Below are positions 11,580-25,028 of a DNA stretch of 64,000 nucleotides, piece by piece (position 1 is the first letter of the stretch; each line of letters begins with the position of its first letter). The notes under the pieces are model-generated. The model ran no database searches and was not told the DNA's origin. It worked only from the letters and a program-made list of their open reading frames with translations. Made by a program: the position numbers and the translations under genes. The stretch spans positions 124,001 to 188,000 of the forward strand of contig JAJPHL010000011.1 of assembly GCA_021325275.1 (NCBI GenBank), in the 5' to 3' direction. The DNA comes from Terriglobia bacterium. GTDB taxonomy: Bacteria; Acidobacteriota; Terriglobia; JAJPHL01.

Positions 11580-12797
11580 TTATTTTTTGTCGTTGTCTTT
11601 TTCCCGCGAGGCACGCGCGAGCGCCAAACGCAGTTGACGGAATTTCGCTTCCTCGAAGTTGTATTTCAGCCGTTCCGGAAATTCCGAGACCCGTTCCGCC
11701 ACGGCGTCGGCCAGCGCTAACTTCGCATCGGGATCGAGCGGCTTTTTCGCCAGCACTTCACGGAATCGCCGCGTAGCCTGCGCGAAGTCGCCGGCGCGGA
11801 GGTAATAGCACGCCAGGTTGTAGGCGTAATCGGTGTCGTTGGGATCGCCCTCCAGCGCCTTCTCGAGATTTTCCAGCGCCGCCGGACGTTTTCGCTCCCG
11901 CATTTGCACCACGCCCAAATTGTTGAACGCCTCGTTCAGTGGGATCGTCGCCGTCACGGCGAGAAACGCGCCTTCGGCGCGCTCATACTGGCGCAGGTGA
12001 TAATCCGCGAGACCTTCCAGGAATCGCGCTTCAAGATAGTTAGGACTTTCCGGAGCCAGTTTTTCGAGCCACTTCACGGCGTCGGAGTATTCGCGACTTT
12101 GAAACGAAATCCGCCCCAACTGAAACGCCGGCGCGAGGAACGCAGGATCAAGCCGCGTGGCTTCGAGAAAATATTTGAACTGTTGCGGCGAAGGACCCGC
12201 GGTCAAGCCGCGAATGTACAACTCCCAGGCTTCGAGCGTGGCGGTTCCCGCGCCTGTACCTGGCGACGCGCTGATTCCCGCTTTTGCGGCGAGATCGGCG
12301 GCCAAGCGATCCTGCATCGCCAGCAAGTCGGCCAGCGGTCCCGATTGCTTGGACGGCGGTTCCAAATGCGGGTGGCGCATCTCCAAAACTTGCGCCGAAA
12401 GCGTCAGATGATCGGCATCGCCTTCGAAACTGCCGAAGATCAAAAGGTCCGCGCCGGTGATTTCGCCGATCTTGATGGCGGTGGCGTGACTCAGGCTGAC
12501 CGACGGCGGCAAGCCCAACTGATCGAACGCCGCGACGCGCTCTTCACGCCGGATCACATAGCGCAATTCGCCGGTGATGGCGCGCGCCGCGGAGGTCTCG
12601 GAAAATCGCCAGTGCGCCGCGAGTCCTTCGGCAGCGCTTTCGCCGACCCAGTCGAGCGCCGAACCGCGGCTGTGATTTTCGAATGGAAGTATAAGGATAG
12701 CCTGCGCAGCCGCAGACGCAGAAAACAACAAGAAAAAAGCCACCGCAGATAAACGCAGATGAACGCCGATACGGATTCGGTCTTTATCAGCGTTCAT
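11580..12797 (-). CDS. Secreted TPR protein with TolB-N-like amino end
   Basis: 405 residues: a signal peptide ending near S-A-S-A-A-A-Q, then I-L-I-L-P-F-E-N-H-S, the start of a FlgO/TolB-N-like domain (to about 140), then roughly six TPR-type helical repeats. The start codon and first 10 codons lie within a palindromic repeat (12742-12824), so the N-terminus is partly repeat-encoded; a GTG at the V-A-F-F-L position is an alternative that would leave a very short signal sequence. It follows another TPR gene by 32 bases. A periplasmic scaffold role is inferred only. Confidence 0.75.
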   Translation of the reverse strand: MNADKDRIRIGVHLRLSAVAFFLLFSASAAAQAILILPFENHSRGSALDWVGESAAEGLAAHWRFSETSAARAITGELRYVIRREERVAAFDQLGLPPSVSLSHATAIKIGEITGADLLIFGSFEGDADHLTLSAQVLEMRHPHLEPPSKQSGPLADLLAMQDRLAADLAAKAGISASPGTGAGTATLEAWELYIRGLTAGPSPQQFKYFLEATRLDPAFLAPAFQLGRISFQSREYSDAVKWLEKLAPESPNYLEARFLEGLADYHLRQYERAEGAFLAVTATIPLNEAFNNLGVVQMRERKRPAALENLEKALEGDPNDTDYAYNLACYYLRAGDFAQATRRFREVLAKKPLDPDAKLALADAVAERVSEFPERLKYNFEEAKFRQLRLALARASREKDNDKK

Positions 12798-12824
12798 CTG
12801 CGTTCATCTGCGTTCATCTGCGGT
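12742..12824. repeat. Palindromic CGCAGATGAACGC repeat covering a gene start
   Basis: Left arm 12742-12766 and right arm 12790-12824 are inverted copies of an (A/T)-rich-spaced 10-base unit, GTTCATCTGC, repeated two to three times. The right arm contains three perfect tandem units (12791-12820), one more than the left. The arms could form a stem of about 24 bp around a 23-base loop. Each unit on the minus strand offers an ATG; only the last stays open. Confidence 0.8.
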
Positions 12825-12829
12825 CGGTT

Positions 12830-13654
12830 TTACCTCGCGATTGCCACCGGCGGATTCTTCATCAACTCCAAGAACGGCTCGGTCTTCACGAGCTCCGCGA
12901 ACGCGGGATCGTCGTAAATCTTCTTCGGCTCATGGAAACCTTCTTCCATGGCTTTCTTCAGGAATTCGAGCGCGCGTTCCTGATTGTGATTCGCGGCGTA
13001 GGTATGCGCGAGAATGAAGTTGAACATTCCGCGATCCTGCACCGTGCGCTCTTGCAGCAGCACGCCGTAGGAATTGTGGTGATCGAAAACGCCGGGATCG
13101 AGTTCCAGCGCCTTCTGGTAGGCGACGATCGCCTCGGGATATTGCTTGCGTGAAAACAACGCCGTGCCCATGTTGCTGTACACCGACGCCGTGTCCGGCG
13201 CCAGCGCCAGGGCCTGCTTATAGTAGCGGATCGCCTTGCTGTAGTTCTTCGCCGTGTAGTAAATCGTGCCCAGGTTGTTGATCGCCTCGGCGTATTTGCG
13301 ATTCAGCTTCACGGCCTTCTCGTAGCATTTTTTCGCTTCGCCCAGTTGCATCAACTGATGATGCGCGATGCCCATTTTGTTCCAGGCGATCGAGTTGTTC
13401 GGCCGCAGCCGCACCGCTTCCTGATAGGAATCGATGGCTTCGAGAAAATTCTTGCGAGCCATCTCCAAGTCGCCGGTCTCTTCCGCCTTTTTCGCGGGAC
13501 TCTGTGCGGCCTCCTGCACCGGTCCGGTCAAAGTGCGGACGTCTTTCTTCGCGACAGCCTGTAGAACTGGGGATTGTACGGAATTACTTTGCGCAATCGC
13601 CATCTCGCCCCCGAGACAGCAGATCGCAAGCAACAGAATCGGCCTTGTGTTCAT
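12830..13654 (-). CDS. Secreted TPR repeat protein
   Basis: 274 residues with a signal peptide (M-N-T-R-P-I-L-L-L-A-I-C-C-L-G-G) and four to five clear TPR motifs between about residues 70 and 200 (for example A-W-N-K-M-G-I-A-H-H-Q-L and A-I-N-N-L-G-T-I-Y-Y). ATG 13654 is chosen: GAGGTGG precedes it by 5 bases and the signal peptide begins there, whereas a GTG at 13684 would add ten charged residues. It follows the PBP gene closely in the same direction, so a role as a periplasmic assembly scaffold near cell-wall synthesis is conceivable. Confidence 0.82.
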   Translation of the reverse strand: MNTRPILLLAICCLGGEMAIAQSNSVQSPVLQAVAKKDVRTLTGPVQEAAQSPAKKAEETGDLEMARKNFLEAIDSYQEAVRLRPNNSIAWNKMGIAHHQLMQLGEAKKCYEKAVKLNRKYAEAINNLGTIYYTAKNYSKAIRYYKQALALAPDTASVYSNMGTALFSRKQYPEAIVAYQKALELDPGVFDHHNSYGVLLQERTVQDRGMFNFILAHTYAANHNQERALEFLKKAMEEGFHEPKKIYDDPAFAELVKTEPFLELMKNPPVAIAR

Positions 13655-16767: not shown

Positions 16768-18477
16768 TTACTCCTGCTTGGCCAAAAACTCCACTACATC
16801 CGTGATGTTAACATCGCTGCGCTGCCCTGTCGAGCGACGCGTTACTTCGACGATACCCGAAGGCGCTTGACGGCCCACGGTGACGCGCCACGGCACGCCG
16901 ATTAAATCGGCGTCCTTGAATTTCACGCCGGGGCGCTCGTCGCGATCGTCGTAGAGCGCGTCGATCTTGCGATCGAGACACGCTTGATAAATCTGCTCGG
17001 CCACGGACGTCAACGCCGCGTCGCGTGTGTTCACGGGCGTGATCACCACTTCAAACGGCGCGATCGATCGGGGCATCGCGATGCCGTTGGCGTCATTGTT
17101 CTGCTCGACGGCGGCCACCAAGATGCGCTCCATGCCGATGCCGTACGATCCCATGATCGGCGCGACTTCCTTGCCCTGCTCGTTGAGCACGCGCGCGCCC
17201 ATCGACTCGGAATACTTGTAGCCGAGCTTGAAGATGTGGCCAATCTCGATGGCCCTCGACACTTTCAATGTCGCACCCGACGCCGCGTCGCACTGCGGAC
17301 AACCTTCGCCGTCCTCGATGACGCGCAGGTCGAAGTATTCGGTAGCGAAATCGCGGCCAGGCTCGACGCCCTTGATGTGAAAATCGTCGGCATTCGCGCC
17401 GGCGACCAGGTTTTTGCGTCCCTGCAGCGCGAGATCCGTCACGATGCGCGGCGCTTTTTTCGCGGGAATGCCAATGGGGCCAAGCGACCCGGGATTCGCA
17501 CCGAAAATATCGAGAATCTCCTGGGGATGTGCGGGACGGAACTCCCCGCCCGAAATCGTTTCGAGCTTCGCTTCGCTCAACTGATGATTTCCGCGCAAGA
17601 GAATCACCAGCGGCTTGTCGCCGACCATATACACGAGCGTCTTGATGTGGCTCGCTTCGGGCAGTCCGTCGAAGGCCGCCACTTCGTCGATGGTTTTCTT
17701 CCCCGGCGTCGCGAAACGCTCGGGCGCGGCGGGACCTGGTGAATCCGACACGGGCGCGAGCTTCGACGTGGCCTTCTCGAGATTCGCGGCGTAGTTGCAT
17801 TTCTCGCAGGTGGCCACAAAATCCTCGCCGGCGTTGCACATCACCATGAATTCTTCCGACTGCGTGCCGCCCATCGCGCCGGAATGCGCGCGCACCGGCG
17901 AGTACTTCAATCCGCAACGGTCGAAGGCGCGGCAGTAAGCCTCGCGATGCTTGTCGTAACTTGTATCGAGCCCCGCGGGGTCGATGTCGAAGGAGTAGGA
18001 ATCCTTCATGATGAACTGGCGCGTACGCAGCAGTCCATTGCGGGGACGCGGTTCGTCGCGAAATTTTGTTTGGATCTGATACCAGATTTGCGGAAGCTGC
18101 TTGTAGCTGCGCACTTCACTGCGCGCGATGGTGGTCATGACTTCTTCGTGCGTCATGCCCAGGCACAGATCGCGCCCGGTGCGATCCTTTAGGCGAAACA
18201 AATTGTCGCCCATGACGGTATAGCGTCCGCTTTCCTGCCAAACTTCCGCCGGATTCAGCGCCGGCAAGTAAAATTCTTGCGCCCCGATGCGATCCATTTC
18301 CTCGCGCACGATTTGTTGGATCTTCAAGAGCGACCGTTGCGCGAGATACAAGTAACTATAGATGCCCGCTCCGAGCTGCCGGATGTATCCGGCGCGAACG
18401 AGCAAACGATGGCTGACGACTTCCGCATCGGCGGGATCGTCACGTAGTGTAGGAATGAACAAACGGCTCCAGCGCAT
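16768..18477 (-). CDS. proS: Prolyl-tRNA synthetase (bacterial type, with editing domain)
   Basis: ProRS charges tRNA-Pro. The 569-residue protein has the class II catalytic core (motif 2 region [13 protein letters not shown]; motif 3 G-S-Y-G-I-G-M-E-R), the inserted YbaK-like cis-editing domain at about 230-385, and the anticodon-binding domain at the end, the full bacterial (ProRS-I) layout. TAGAAT ends exactly 6 bases before the ATG, with no Shine-Dalgarno sequence, so the mRNA is probably leaderless. Its first 29 codons and promoter are duplicated at 19082-19186. Confidence 0.97.
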
Positions 18478-18494
18478 CTAAAAATTCTATCATG
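18390..18494. repeat. 105-bp direct repeat, copy 1 (proS 5' end and promoter)
   Basis: This copy contains the authentic first 29 codons of proS, its start codon and its -10 hexamer. The second copy lies at 19082-19186 with 101 of 105 matching bases; all four differences are transitions. Confidence 0.93.
18484..18489 (-). promoter_or_regulatory. -10 hexamer of proS, leaderless spacing
   Basis: TAGAAT on the minus strand, preceded by TGA (an extended -10), ends exactly 6 bases before ATG 18477. Confidence 0.65.
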
Positions 18495-19081: not shown

Positions 19082-19186
19082 CGGCGCGAACGAGCAAACG
19101 ATGGCTGACGATTTCCGCATCGGCGGGATCGTCACGCAGTGTAAGAATGAACAAACGGCTCCAGCGCATCTAAAAATTCCATCATG
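19082..19186. repeat. 105-bp direct repeat, copy 2 (orphan proS 5' end)
   Basis: This is the second copy of 18390-18494. It starts a leftward frame with 28 ProRS-like residues that then runs antisense into the RHH cassette, so it is a proS fragment, not a gene. One of its four substitutions changes the -10 from TAGAAT to TGGAAT, removing the critical second-position A. Confidence 0.93.
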
Positions 19187-20822: not shown

Positions 20823-21686
20823 ATGCCGATTCGCACCGTTGCGATTCTCTCCAAGCCCCGCCCGCACGAAGTCCGCGCCGCACTCACGGGACTCCTCGCG
20901 TGGCTGCATCAGCATGGACTCGCTACCGTCATCGATCTCGAGACCGCCAAGTCGCTCGACACCGACGGCACTTGCATCGCGCGCGAATCGCTCCCCGACG
21001 TCGACCTCGTGATCGTGGTCGGCGGCGACGGCACGCTGCTCTCGGCCACGCGCGCGCTCGCCGGCCGCGACACTCCTGTGCTCGCGGTCAATCTCGGCAG
21101 CTTGGGATTTCTTACGCCCATCGCGCTCGACCAGATGTATCCGATGCTCGAGCGCGTGCTCGCCGGGAATTATGAGGAAGACCGCCGGTTCATCCTGCAA
21201 TCGTCGGTGATTCGCCAAGGCGCGGTCATCGAGACATATCACACGCTCAACGACGTGGTGATCAACAAGGCCGCCATCGCGCGCATTCTCGATTTTCACG
21301 TCTCCGCCAGCGGCCAAGCGATTTCTAAATATAAAGCCGACGGCTTGATCTTCTCCACGCCCACCGGATCCACGGGATACTCGCTCGCGGCCGGCGGGCC
21401 CATCATCGATCCGCACGTGGACGCGCTACTGCTCACGCCGATTTGCTCGCACACGCTGAATCATCGCCCGCTGGTGCTTCCCGGCGACTCGCAGCTCGAA
21501 GTGGTCATCGACTCCTTCGGCGAGCAGGTGCATCTCACCGCCGACGGCCAAGTGGGAATGCCGATCGAACACGGCGATCGCGTGGTGTGCAGGCGTTCGC
21601 CGCGCGTGCTGCGTTTGATCCGTCCGCAATCCACGGGATACTTCGAGATCCTGCGCAACAAATTGAGTTGGGGGCAACGTTCATGA
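20823..21686 (+). CDS. nadK: NAD kinase
   Basis: NadK phosphorylates NAD to NADP. The 287-residue protein shows the kinase-family G-G-D-G-T-L-L motif near residue 67, L-N-D-V-V-I (the N-E/D motif) near 140 and the Gly-rich conserved P-T-G-S-T-G-Y-S-L-A-A-G-G-P region. I use ATG 20823 rather than the in-frame TTG 20817 because family members begin just before the first beta strand. The stop overlaps the dipeptidase start (ATGA), so the two are coupled. Confidence 0.95.
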   Translation: MPIRTVAILSKPRPHEVRAALTGLLAWLHQHGLATVIDLETAKSLDTDGTCIARESLPDVDLVIVVGGDGTLLSATRALAGRDTPVLAVNLGSLGFLTPIALDQMYPMLERVLAGNYEEDRRFILQSSVIRQGAVIETYHTLNDVVINKAAIARILDFHVSASGQAISKYKADGLIFSTPTGSTGYSLAAGGPIIDPHVDALLLTPICSHTLNHRPLVLPGDSQLEVVIDSFGEQVHLTADGQVGMPIEHGDRVVCRRSPRVLRLIRPQSTGYFEILRNKLSWGQRS

Positions 21687-22816
21687 CATTTCGCCGCGCT
21701 CTTCCGCTGCTGCTTCTTCTCTGTTCCCTGCCGGCCATCGCGCAAATTGGTGTCGACACGCACCTCGACGTCATGCAGCGCGTGCTGATCGAAGGCAAAG
21801 ACCTCGGCACGCTCTTACCCGACGGCCAAGTCGATTTTGTGCGATTGAAACGCGGCGGCGTGACGGCGCCCTTCTTCGCGCTCTACATTCCGGTGTACTA
21901 CAAGGGCGGCGAAGCGGTGCGCCGCACGCTCGACTTCCGCGATGCCGCGCAGAAACTACTCGATGCCCATCCAGATGCCGCGCAAATGGCGCTGAACGCC
22001 GCCGACATCGAGCGGATCACATCGAGCGGCAAGCTGGCGATCGTGCTTACGCTCGAAGGCGGACACCAAATCGGCAACGACATCGCCGTGCTGCGCGTCT
22101 ACCACCACCTCGGCATTCGCGCCATGACGTTGACGCATTTCCGCAACAACGAATGGGCCGATTCCTCCACCGACAAGCCCGAACACAACGGGCTCACCGA
22201 GTTCGGCAAGAACGTCGTGCGCGAAATGAATCGCCTCGGCATGATCGTGGACATCTCGCACGTCTCCGACAAAACGTTCTACGACGCTGTCGCCGTGAGC
22301 ACCAAACCGGTGATCGCTTCTCATTCCTCATGCCGGGCTCTCTGTGACGTGCCGCGCAACATGACCGACGACATGCTCCGCGCGCTCGCGAAAAACGGCG
22401 GTGTGGTGGGAATCAACTTCGCGCCCGGATTCTTGAATCGTGAAGACGCCGCGGCCACCATGGCAAGCATCAACACGCGCGGCGCGGAAGAACCGAAATT
22501 ATCGGGCAAGGCGCTGGACGATTACTCGAAGTCGCAAATCCTGAAGGAAGACGCGGCGCACGCCAAGACGGCGCACGCCACCATCGACGACGTGGTGGCG
22601 CACATCGATCACGCCGTGAAAGTCGCGGGGATCGATCACGTTGGCATCGGCAGCGACTTTGACGGGATTCCGCAGGTGCCGGTTGGCCTGGAAGACATCG
22701 GCAAGATGCCCGAGCTGTGGGCCAAGCTCAAGGCGAAAGGCTATTCCGACGCCGACATCGCCAAGATTCGCGGCGGAAACTTGCTGCGCGTAATTCGTGC
22801 GGTAACGGGCAAATAA
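21683..22816 (+). CDS. Secreted membrane dipeptidase (peptidase family M19)
   Basis: 377 residues with a signal peptide ending near A-I-A-Q. The binuclear zinc site of renal-dipeptidase-type enzymes is present: H27 and D29 (D-T-H-L-D), E125 (L-E-G-G-H), H193 and H214 (S-H-S-S-C-R-A-L). These enzymes cleave dipeptides, including some with D-residues. The longer frame back to 21443 lies inside nadK and is rejected. The TAA at 22814-22816 forms part of the left arm of the palindromic element that follows. Confidence 0.92.
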   Translation: MTFRRALPLLLLLCSLPAIAQIGVDTHLDVMQRVLIEGKDLGTLLPDGQVDFVRLKRGGVTAPFFALYIPVYYKGGEAVRRTLDFRDAAQKLLDAHPDAAQMALNAADIERITSSGKLAIVLTLEGGHQIGNDIAVLRVYHHLGIRAMTLTHFRNNEWADSSTDKPEHNGLTEFGKNVVREMNRLGMIVDISHVSDKTFYDAVAVSTKPVIASHSSCRALCDVPRNMTDDMLRALAKNGGVVGINFAPGFLNREDAAATMASINTRGAEEPKLSGKALDDYSKSQILKEDAAHAKTAHATIDDVVAHIDHAVKVAGIDHVGIGSDFDGIPQVPVGLEDIGKMPELWAKLKAKGYSDADIAKIRGGNLLRVIRAVTGK

Positions 22817-22951
22817 TTTGGAGTGCGGCGACTTGTCGCCGCTTTGTTAGCCCGCGGCTTGACGCGGGCCGCGATTCACGCAGTTTCAAGACAGGCGTGC
22901 GAGTCAAGCCTCGCGCGGCGAAAGCGGCGACAAGTCGCCGCACTCCAAATT
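22815..22951. repeat. 137-bp nested palindromic element (REPIN/MITE-like)
   Basis: The ends are a perfect 31-bp inverted repeat (22815-22845 and 22921-22951), and each arm itself contains the hairpin GCGGCGAC-TT-GTCGCCGC. Inside lies a second hairpin, GCCCGCG-GCTTGA-CGCGGGC (22850-22869), and a diverged inverted copy of it near 22896-22917. The element is thus two head-to-head copies of a two-hairpin unit of about 60 bp. It fills the space between two convergent stop codons and may also act as a bidirectional terminator. Confidence 0.9.
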
Positions 22952-22952
22952 A

Positions 22953-25028
22953 CTATCCGCACCTACAGCCATTCACTTTCCAATACACCGAATATCGTTT
23001 GCCGAAAATGCTGTTGATCGGCGCAAACGACACGTCCGTCTTCTGACCGTTGGTGCGGAAGCCAAGCGGTGAATCCGCCGGCTTGATCCACATGGCGGGA
23101 TCTTCGCCCATTTGCGTGAATTCCGGAATCGTGAGTTGCGGCATCGCGTGCATACGCGGCGCGTTGGGACCGGTGATCAGCGCGTCGGTCAAGCCTTCCG
23201 ATCCCAAATCACCCGCCAGCACCGTGGGACCGTAAAGGAACGCTTGCAACGTCAGATCATCGGGCATCGCCTCGACGCGCAGTTTCATCGGCAGCGACAT
23301 TTCGATCTTGTCGCCGGTTTTCCATTGACGCGCGATCGAGAAGTAGCTGCCGCCCGCCGCCGTCGCTTCGAGCGCGCGTCCGTTGATCTTGATCACCGGC
23401 GCCGACGCCACCCACTCGGGGATTCGCAAACGCAAAGCAACTTGCGCGGGACGTTCGGCCGTCACGGTAAGCGTTGTGCCGGCCTCTTGCGGGAATTTCG
23501 TTTCTTGCTTGAGCGAAAATCCCTTCTCTTTCCAGTTCAACTCCGACGGGATGAACAAATTCACGTAGACGCCGGAATCGTCCTTCCAATAAATGCTGTC
23601 GTTCAGCTTGCTGTACTCTTCCACGCCCGATCCGGTGCAGCACCAGAACGATTGGTCCTCGGTGCCGAACGTCTTGTACGCGCCCGGCGTCAGCGATAGG
23701 TAATATTGCGTGTGGCCGGTCTGCGGCTGGATCGTGCCGATGCGATGATTGAACATCACGCGCTCGTAGTAATCGAAGAAGCGCGGATCGGCCGTCCAGG
23801 AATAAAGGTGACGCGTCAACTTCATCATGTTGTAGGCGCAGCAACACTCGGCCGTCGCGACCGACCGCTTCAATTCGTCGGCCAGTTGCCGCGGCGGGCT
23901 CTGCCATCCTTCGCCGTTGCTGGTGCCGCCGGTGACATAGGCGCGCGCGGTGGTGACTTCGTAGTAGAAGTAATCGGCCACGTCGTGGAATCGCGTGTCG
24001 CCGGAAATTTCGTACCGCCGCGCCGCGCCGATCACCTGCGGGATATGCGTGTTGACGTGCAATCCGCGTAATTCGTCGCGCCGCGACGCCAGCGGATTCA
24101 TGAATTCCTTCTTCGTGAAGCGATCGCCGGCCTGCGCCCAGCGATCGTCGATGGAAAGCGCCGACAAATTGTAGAGCGATTCCGCCATGCCGCCGAATTC
24201 CACGCGCAGAATCTGCTGCATGTGTTCTTCGGTTTTCGATTTGCTCCAGTCGTCGGCCCACGCGCCGATCCCTTCGGCCACCTTCAACGCCTGCTTGTTG
24301 CCGGCGAGCTGATACATGTCGAGCATGCCGGCGAAAATCTTGTGGATCGTGTAGAACGGCGCCCATGGCAGAGTCGGCGCGTTGGAATCACGCGGCACAT
24401 TCGGATCGCGGCGCACCCCGGACAATTGATCCAGCCGGTCAAACAATTCCATCGGAAACGCGCTCAAGTATCCGCCGCCCAGTTTCTCCTGGCACTTCGC
24501 CATCTCGGCGACCAGCTCGTCGCCTTTGGCCTTGGCTTCCTTGTCGCCGTTGGCGGCGAGTTGCGCCGACGCGCTCAGAAAATGTCCCGTGAAGTGGCCG
24601 CGCAATTCCGTGCCGCGTTTCCCGTCGGCCTTGGCTTCCCATCCGCCGAAGGGCTCCGCCGATCCCATGGAAAGGCCCGCGTTCTCTCTGAAATTGTAGA
24701 GCAGGCGATCCATGGGCAGTCGCGACATGTAGGCACGGTTCCACTCCGTCGCTTCGGTGAAAACACTCGGCAGCAAACGCACCTGCTGCATCGGAAACGG
24801 CATGACCTTCGGCGTGAGCTCGCGGCGTTTGAACTCGATGGGGGCCTGGAAAGGCGGCACGGGCTCGGGTCGTTGCTGGCGCGGAGGCGGCGGCGCGGCG
24901 ACCTGTGTTCCAGTGAAGGGAACAGCGGGATTCTGTTGCGCCAACAACGCGGGGGCCGCAGCGGCGGAACCGGCGATCAGCGCCGCAAAATTCCGGCGAT
25001 TCAGACGAAGTGATTTGGGCTTGGACAT
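22953..25028 (-). CDS. Tat-exported glycoside hydrolase, GH127-like (DUF1680)
   Basis: 691 residues. The start L-N-R-R-N-F-A-A-L-I-A-G is a twin-arginine signal followed by an Ala-rich cleavage region. The body matches the beta-L-arabinofuranosidase family: (alpha/alpha)6-barrel-like sequence with T-A-E-C-C-C-A-Y-N-M-M-K-L (the Glu/Cys zone around the zinc site) and F-W-C-C-T-G-S-G-V-E-E, both characteristic of GH127. A role in removing arabinose from plant polysaccharides or glycans is inferred. The frame upstream to 25418 is rejected; GGAGG sits about 10 bases before ATG 25028. It diverges from the S9 peptidase. Confidence 0.87.
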   Translation of the reverse strand: MSKPKSLRLNRRNFAALIAGSAAAAPALLAQQNPAVPFTGTQVAAPPPPRQQRPEPVPPFQAPIEFKRRELTPKVMPFPMQQVRLLPSVFTEATEWNRAYMSRLPMDRLLYNFRENAGLSMGSAEPFGGWEAKADGKRGTELRGHFTGHFLSASAQLAANGDKEAKAKGDELVAEMAKCQEKLGGGYLSAFPMELFDRLDQLSGVRRDPNVPRDSNAPTLPWAPFYTIHKIFAGMLDMYQLAGNKQALKVAEGIGAWADDWSKSKTEEHMQQILRVEFGGMAESLYNLSALSIDDRWAQAGDRFTKKEFMNPLASRRDELRGLHVNTHIPQVIGAARRYEISGDTRFHDVADYFYYEVTTARAYVTGGTSNGEGWQSPPRQLADELKRSVATAECCCAYNMMKLTRHLYSWTADPRFFDYYERVMFNHRIGTIQPQTGHTQYYLSLTPGAYKTFGTEDQSFWCCTGSGVEEYSKLNDSIYWKDDSGVYVNLFIPSELNWKEKGFSLKQETKFPQEAGTTLTVTAERPAQVALRLRIPEWVASAPVIKINGRALEATAAGGSYFSIARQWKTGDKIEMSLPMKLRVEAMPDDLTLQAFLYGPTVLAGDLGSEGLTDALITGPNAPRMHAMPQLTIPEFTQMGEDPAMWIKPADSPLGFRTNGQKTDVSFAPINSIFGKRYSVYWKVNGCRCG

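Follow-up and report, generated by a model that had tools for sequence, protein, structure and literature searches.

A REPIN-like element flush with convergent stop codons and its probable Y1 transposase in a Terriglobia bacterium

Results

Structure of the element between the M19 and GH127 genes

The intergenic element at 22815–22951 of the window (the whole 64,000-nt stretch of DNA analysed here) is very probably a non-autonomous member of a RAYT/REPIN system, in which the Y1 transposase encoded by a 628-bp copy would mobilise the inverted pairs in trans. There is good support for a RAYT/REPIN system whose tag is non-canonical. The arms of the element, AATTTGGAGTGCGGCGACTTGTCGCCGCTTT, are perfect reverse complements far beyond chance, which bears out the 31-bp inverted repeats reported by the first-pass annotation. 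When mismatches are allowed, the arms extend to 53 nt (22814–22866 and 22900–22952) with 87% complementarity. A 23-mer within the arms occurs twice in the window, against 0.00 expected, and the single-strand fold of the element reaches −101.9 kcal/mol, compared with −58.0 ± 4.0 for shuffled sequences (z −11). The element had been described as two head-to-head copies of a two-hairpin unit; the outer hairpins are indeed identical, whereas the inner hairpins A and B differ, an arrangement common to most long copies, in one polarity. Hairpin A as an independent REP was ruled out by its 11 exact genome copies, all of which sit in long elements. Rfam yielded matches to eukaryotic miRNA and sRNA models only, far under their gathering scores, and these are ascribed to the palindrome.

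The M19 and GH127 genes are convergent, and the element lies between their stops: as annotated, it starts inside one of them and stops one base short of the other (Table 1). The Pfam match of the M19 dipeptidase reaches profile position 318 of 319 near the C-terminus. Two further repeats were observed in the window, namely a separate inverted repeat, AAAAGCCACCGCAGATAAACGCAGATGAACGCCGAT, at 12735–12831 with 89% complementary arms, and a 105-nt direct repeat at 18390–18494 and 19082–19186, 96% identical and 692 nt apart.

Table 1. Coordinates of the element, its parts and its neighbours in the window, and of a small palindrome elsewhere in the genome
Feature	Position	Strand	Remarks
M19 membrane dipeptidase gene	21587–22816	+	TAA at 22814–22816 abuts the element
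REPIN-like element	22815–22951	.	137 bp with AATT ends; TTT...AAA core 22817–22949
Left 31-bp terminal repeat	22815–22845	+	tag TTTGGAGT, hairpin, TTT
Left outer hairpin	22825–22842	+	GCGGCGA-CTTG-TCGCCGC, 7-bp stem
Inner hairpin A	22850–22869	+	GCCCGCGGCTTGACGCGGGC; GCCCGCG-GCTTGA-CGCGGGC
Inner hairpin B	22896–22917	+	CGTGCGAG-TCAAGC-CTCGCGCG; stem covaries among copies
Right 31-bp terminal repeat	22921–22951	-	reverse complement of left; outer hairpin 22924–22941
GH127 beta-L-arabinofuranosidase-like gene	22953–25019	-	stop codon 22953–22955; 25019 is the end of the scanned stretch
Loci with the small palindrome (about AATCAAACGCACTGCGTGCTTGATT)	C14:129673–129810 (L046); C51:191856–192003 (L274); C75:12979–13134 (L275); C7:55122–55146		

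Copies of the repeat within the genome

The terminal repeat is not unique. In the 6.86-Mb genome, its 29-nt core, TTTGGAGTGCGGCGACTTGTCGCCGCTTT, has 54 matches with at most three mismatches (43 exact), against none for the reversed pattern used as a control. The matches are dispersed and nearly all arranged as inverted pairs, in agreement with the REPIN or MITE organisation proposed at first pass. With 20 long copies as input, a covariance model recovered about 41 elements, a number counted by hand from 81 matches, since most elements match on both strands. The copy at 22815–22951 belongs to the long family (E 2.6e-38, with this copy among the model's own building sequences). Long elements measure about 133 bp and contain four hairpins, an identical outer pair and two differing inner ones whose stems covary among the copies, while short elements of about 88 bp keep the outer hairpins and lack the inner pair. 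The family has the structural traits of REPINs, with paired inverted REPs that form one hairpin and occur in many intergenic copies. Three old copies carry, inserted in their REP hairpins, another small palindrome, about AATCAAACGCACTGCGTGCTTGATT, of which the genome has four copies in total.

One copy of 628 bp (G000:C40:69908–70535) ends exactly as the others do and encloses a transposase gene. GGCTCACGCCTCGGACCTTA is found on both sides of this copy (L024/L035), and the ATG downstream opens a Ser/Thr-kinase-like frame, which suggests that the copy inserted beside or within duplicated kinase starts.

A REP-associated tyrosine transposase within the 628-bp copy

The RAYT gene whose presence the first-pass annotation had proposed to check was found. 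The genome contains five Y1_Tnp genes, and the one within the 628-bp copy encodes P0001, a 182-aa HUH/Y1 protein classed as a REP-associated tyrosine transposase. P0001 passes the NCBIfam REP_Tyr_transpos cut-off (86.4 bits versus 80) and falls just under the Pfam Y1_Tnp threshold (22.9 versus 23), reaching 23.2 when scanned with its neighbours. It possesses the HUH motif and the single catalytic tyrosine in a YxxxNPV motif, and NHYHF and NYVHQNPV are invariant or nearly so across 24 relatives. Its gene is flanked by repeats that are also dispersed in the genome. The closest solved relative, by sequence and predicted fold, is 4er8, the E. coli TnpAREP with a bound REP hairpin; the predicted structure of P0001 (pLDDT 85) gives it as the top match (E 1.5e-9, TM 0.66/0.72), pointing to a TnpAREP fold. 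Aligned with Q95, E100, H101, and R104, which PMC6006769 lists as guide contacts in E. coli, P0001 appears to carry Y, D, T, and T. These mostly changed residues would fit a different tag, as judged from one weak alignment read by eye. The four other Y1 genes (L050 on C24, L051 on C70, L052 on C14, and L053 on C1) are flanked by different inverted repeats of their own, and TGTATCAGGGCACGGCTTCAGC, beside the C70 gene, recurs in the old copy L276.

Relatives of the transposase and the tag in other genomes

A single scan across species genomes yielded 79 loci, and the 53 relatives L086–L138 among them were examined. Relatives of P0001, at 44–69% identity, occur in Acidobacteriota, Verrucomicrobiota, Planctomycetes, Armatimonadota, a Thioalkalivibrio bin, and others, many of these genomes being metagenome bins; phyla are intermixed in the transposase tree, whose support is poor. 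Nearly all 53 genes have a TTTGGA[G/C]TGC-type end beside them, in which a hairpin and then GCTTT come after the tag. Dispersed repeats were detected in 44 of the 50 genomes with a relative, reaching 91 further copies, and the control gave none. Across genomes, the hairpin stem varies in sequence and keeps its pairing, with 98.4% of cells paired and a between-genome covariation score of 0.61 versus 0.16 for shuffled data, in a set hand-picked for equal length (27 nt), a choice that accounts in part for the invariant letters. Longer, less regular repeat forms also occur among the relatives, and one locus (L230, G064:C100:12558–12666) contains four head-to-tail REP copies at 27-nt spacing.

All 27 ends that were compared, which come from this equal-length set, read GGA[G/C]T in the tag and lack the GT[AG]G tetranucleotide that stands 5' of the hairpin in the canonical REPs of the GTAG superfamily. 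A literature search with the tag sequence gave no relevant match among those listed. Of 199 sampled Acidobacteriota genomes, six had a close transposase and 193 had none; at least five repeats were present in four of the former and 12 of the latter (Fisher p 4e-4), where close means at least 160 bits and both cuts were set after viewing the lists. The twelve repeat-rich genomes without a transposase at the 160-bit cut imply that the repeats can persist without the transposase or use another.

Insertion sites and the fit to stop codons

The intergenic bias that the first-pass annotation had proposed to look for is present and extreme. On at least one side, 18 of the 20 long copies have a neighbour's natural stop codon 0–1 nt away, a distance that applies to 1.0% of noncoding positions in 464 kb of this genome, and copies flush with one stop often abut the next gene too. 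With gene calls from a home-made codon-usage score, hand-made counts, and a 0–1 nt cut chosen after looking, the tiny binomial p is only indicative; the fit is large enough to stand despite the post hoc cut and is real in this genome. At convergent sites with close neighbours, both stops are within 0–3 nt of the element in seven of seven cases. Several older, decayed copies are still flush with a stop (L274, L277, L281, L045, and L048), and the fit is seen in one of seven short copies, the 628-bp copy included. Junctions spaced by at most 3 nt make up about 30% of the tandem and convergent junctions in this genome; tight junctions are thus common, yet insufficient to account for the fit. The neighbours' stops look natural, since the stops at the boundary also include TAG and TGA, and C-termini are conserved in element-free relatives, namely YD before the stop upstream of the dnaE2-like gene and RL[RK] before the stop upstream of tatD. 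The idea that the element supplies the stop codon was therefore rejected. The neighbouring genes at the two junctions checked look intact.

At the outer boundary of 22 well-preserved copies, A occupies position −1 in 34 of 44 ends and position −2 in 31, and C or T occupies position −3 in 35. No target duplication of 2–10 bp exceeded the mispaired-flank control at any boundary shift in these copies, and a TA duplication was rejected on the same comparison. Target sequence alone was likewise rejected as the source of the stop fit, as noncoding YAA|T sites are flush in 21 of 574 cases versus 18 of 20 long elements. In other genomes, the fit is weaker: it is little or none in G064 and G066 and present to some extent in G061, G062, and G075, with many copies in G064 and G075 within some tens of nucleotides of a stop. 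An exact fit was accordingly discarded as a family-wide rule. In E. coli, too, a significant proportion of REPs are located 1–20 nt away from ORF 3' ends (PMC12306157), and the fit in this genome may be a known tendency taken to an extreme.

Discussion

The earlier proposal of mobilisation by a RAYT holds insofar as a RAYT gene lies between the shared ends; mobilisation in trans is what these ends suggest. The Y1 transposase of the 628-bp copy would most likely bind the TTTGGA[G/C]T-tagged folded hairpins at both ends as single strands. It would then cut and rejoin both ends, whereby the whole inverted pair would be copied or moved in trans. The sites are noncoding with a YAA|T preference, and those of the long form lie exactly at natural gene ends. 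The enzyme may still be active. An element-free orthologous junction in a distant relative, G036 (L328), reads ATGTACGACTAATG, versus ATGTACGACTAA[element]TG in G000; the drawn genomes, which included none of the same genus or family, showed no excision product, no polymorphism, and no empty site in a close relative. Further points stand against the RAYT/REPIN reading: the stop-codon fit lies outside what a RAYT mechanism explains, any of the four other Y1 genes could act instead of P0001, and twelve sampled genomes are rich in repeats yet have no transposase at the 160-bit cut.

The long perfect terminal repeats, small size, and AT-rich target would also suit a classical MITE, whose terminal inverted repeats are recognised by a DDE transposase that duplicates its target. 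We regard this as highly improbable, given the lack of target duplication described above, the fact that each end is itself a tagged hairpin, and the Y1 identity of the sole gene found between the same ends. A more serious competitor is a host-kept bidirectional terminator or gene insulator, selected at tight junctions, for which the origin from a transposase is now secondary. The exact fit to gene ends, the placement at all seven convergent sites with close neighbours, and the very stable hairpin speak for it. On the other side, the terminator scan flagged the left hairpin on the + strand only, with a T-run of merely TTTGTT, and several copies split same-strand pairs, as at the dnaE2-like and upstream-of-TatD junctions, where termination is expected to be harmful; the short copies also lack the fit. 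A bidirectional-terminator role is thus possible and weakly supported, and as the main explanation of the element it is doubtful.

Selection alone would explain the placement differently: insertion is random, and hairpins in transcribed regions are tolerated only directly after a stop, where terminating ribosomes keep them unfolded. Although this would account for the 0–1 nt gaps between same-strand genes and for the E. coli-like enrichment near stop codons (PMC12306157), it demands that almost every insertion at the remaining 99% of noncoding positions has been lost, even in convergent spacers, where a hairpin should do no harm; we judge it somewhat less probable still than the terminator. 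Neither target sequence nor selection fully explains the stop fit. Our working account, which is incomplete, mixes target preference with strong selection on tolerated sites. A tentative alternative, about as doubtful as the terminator, is that RAYT-driven insertion is directed or confined to the exact post-stop junction and enters tight gene pairs harmlessly, possibly through coupling to termination of translation or transcription.

How REPs choose their sites is an open question, and a simple conserved end, a cognate transposase, and the stop fit make this a clean system for studying single-strand target choice. The findings extend RAYT–REP pairs to a non-GT[AG]G tag common to several phyla, and the consensus TTTGGASTGC-hairpin-GCTTT allows such repeats to be annotated in many soil and water bacteria.

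The family resembles the REPIN/RAYT system of Pseudomonas fluorescens SBW25 and E. coli TnpAREP (PMC3116915, PMC8266576) in its tagged hairpins, inverted pairs, noncoding dispersal, Y1/HUH gene flanked by its own repeats, and predicted 4er8-like fold. It differs from both in its tag, TTTGGA[G/C]TGC in place of GT[AG]G, and in long copies with two extra inner hairpins and a near-exact stop-codon fit, and apparently from E. coli TnpAREP in the guide-contact residues as read by eye. Like TIRtrons and TIRYTs, reported also from Acidobacteria (PMC3733652), it has a RAYT-like gene within terminal inverted repeats that are dispersed as dimers as well. Some TIRs described there contain a GGGGWSAS motif, unlike the TTTGGASTGC and covarying hairpin found here. 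TnpAY1 class 3 and subclass 2.6 with atypical feet (PMC6006769) share non-GT[AG]G repeats around Y1 genes with our system; Acidobacteria are among the hosts of class 3, Solibacter usitatus having about 600 repeats. Class 3 is described there with a CnGA foot and a Y----Q motif, whereas P0001 has YVHQNPV as in E. coli TnpAREP. Set apart from the systems of these last two sources by their text descriptions, the tag provisionally marks a new RAYT/REP variant.
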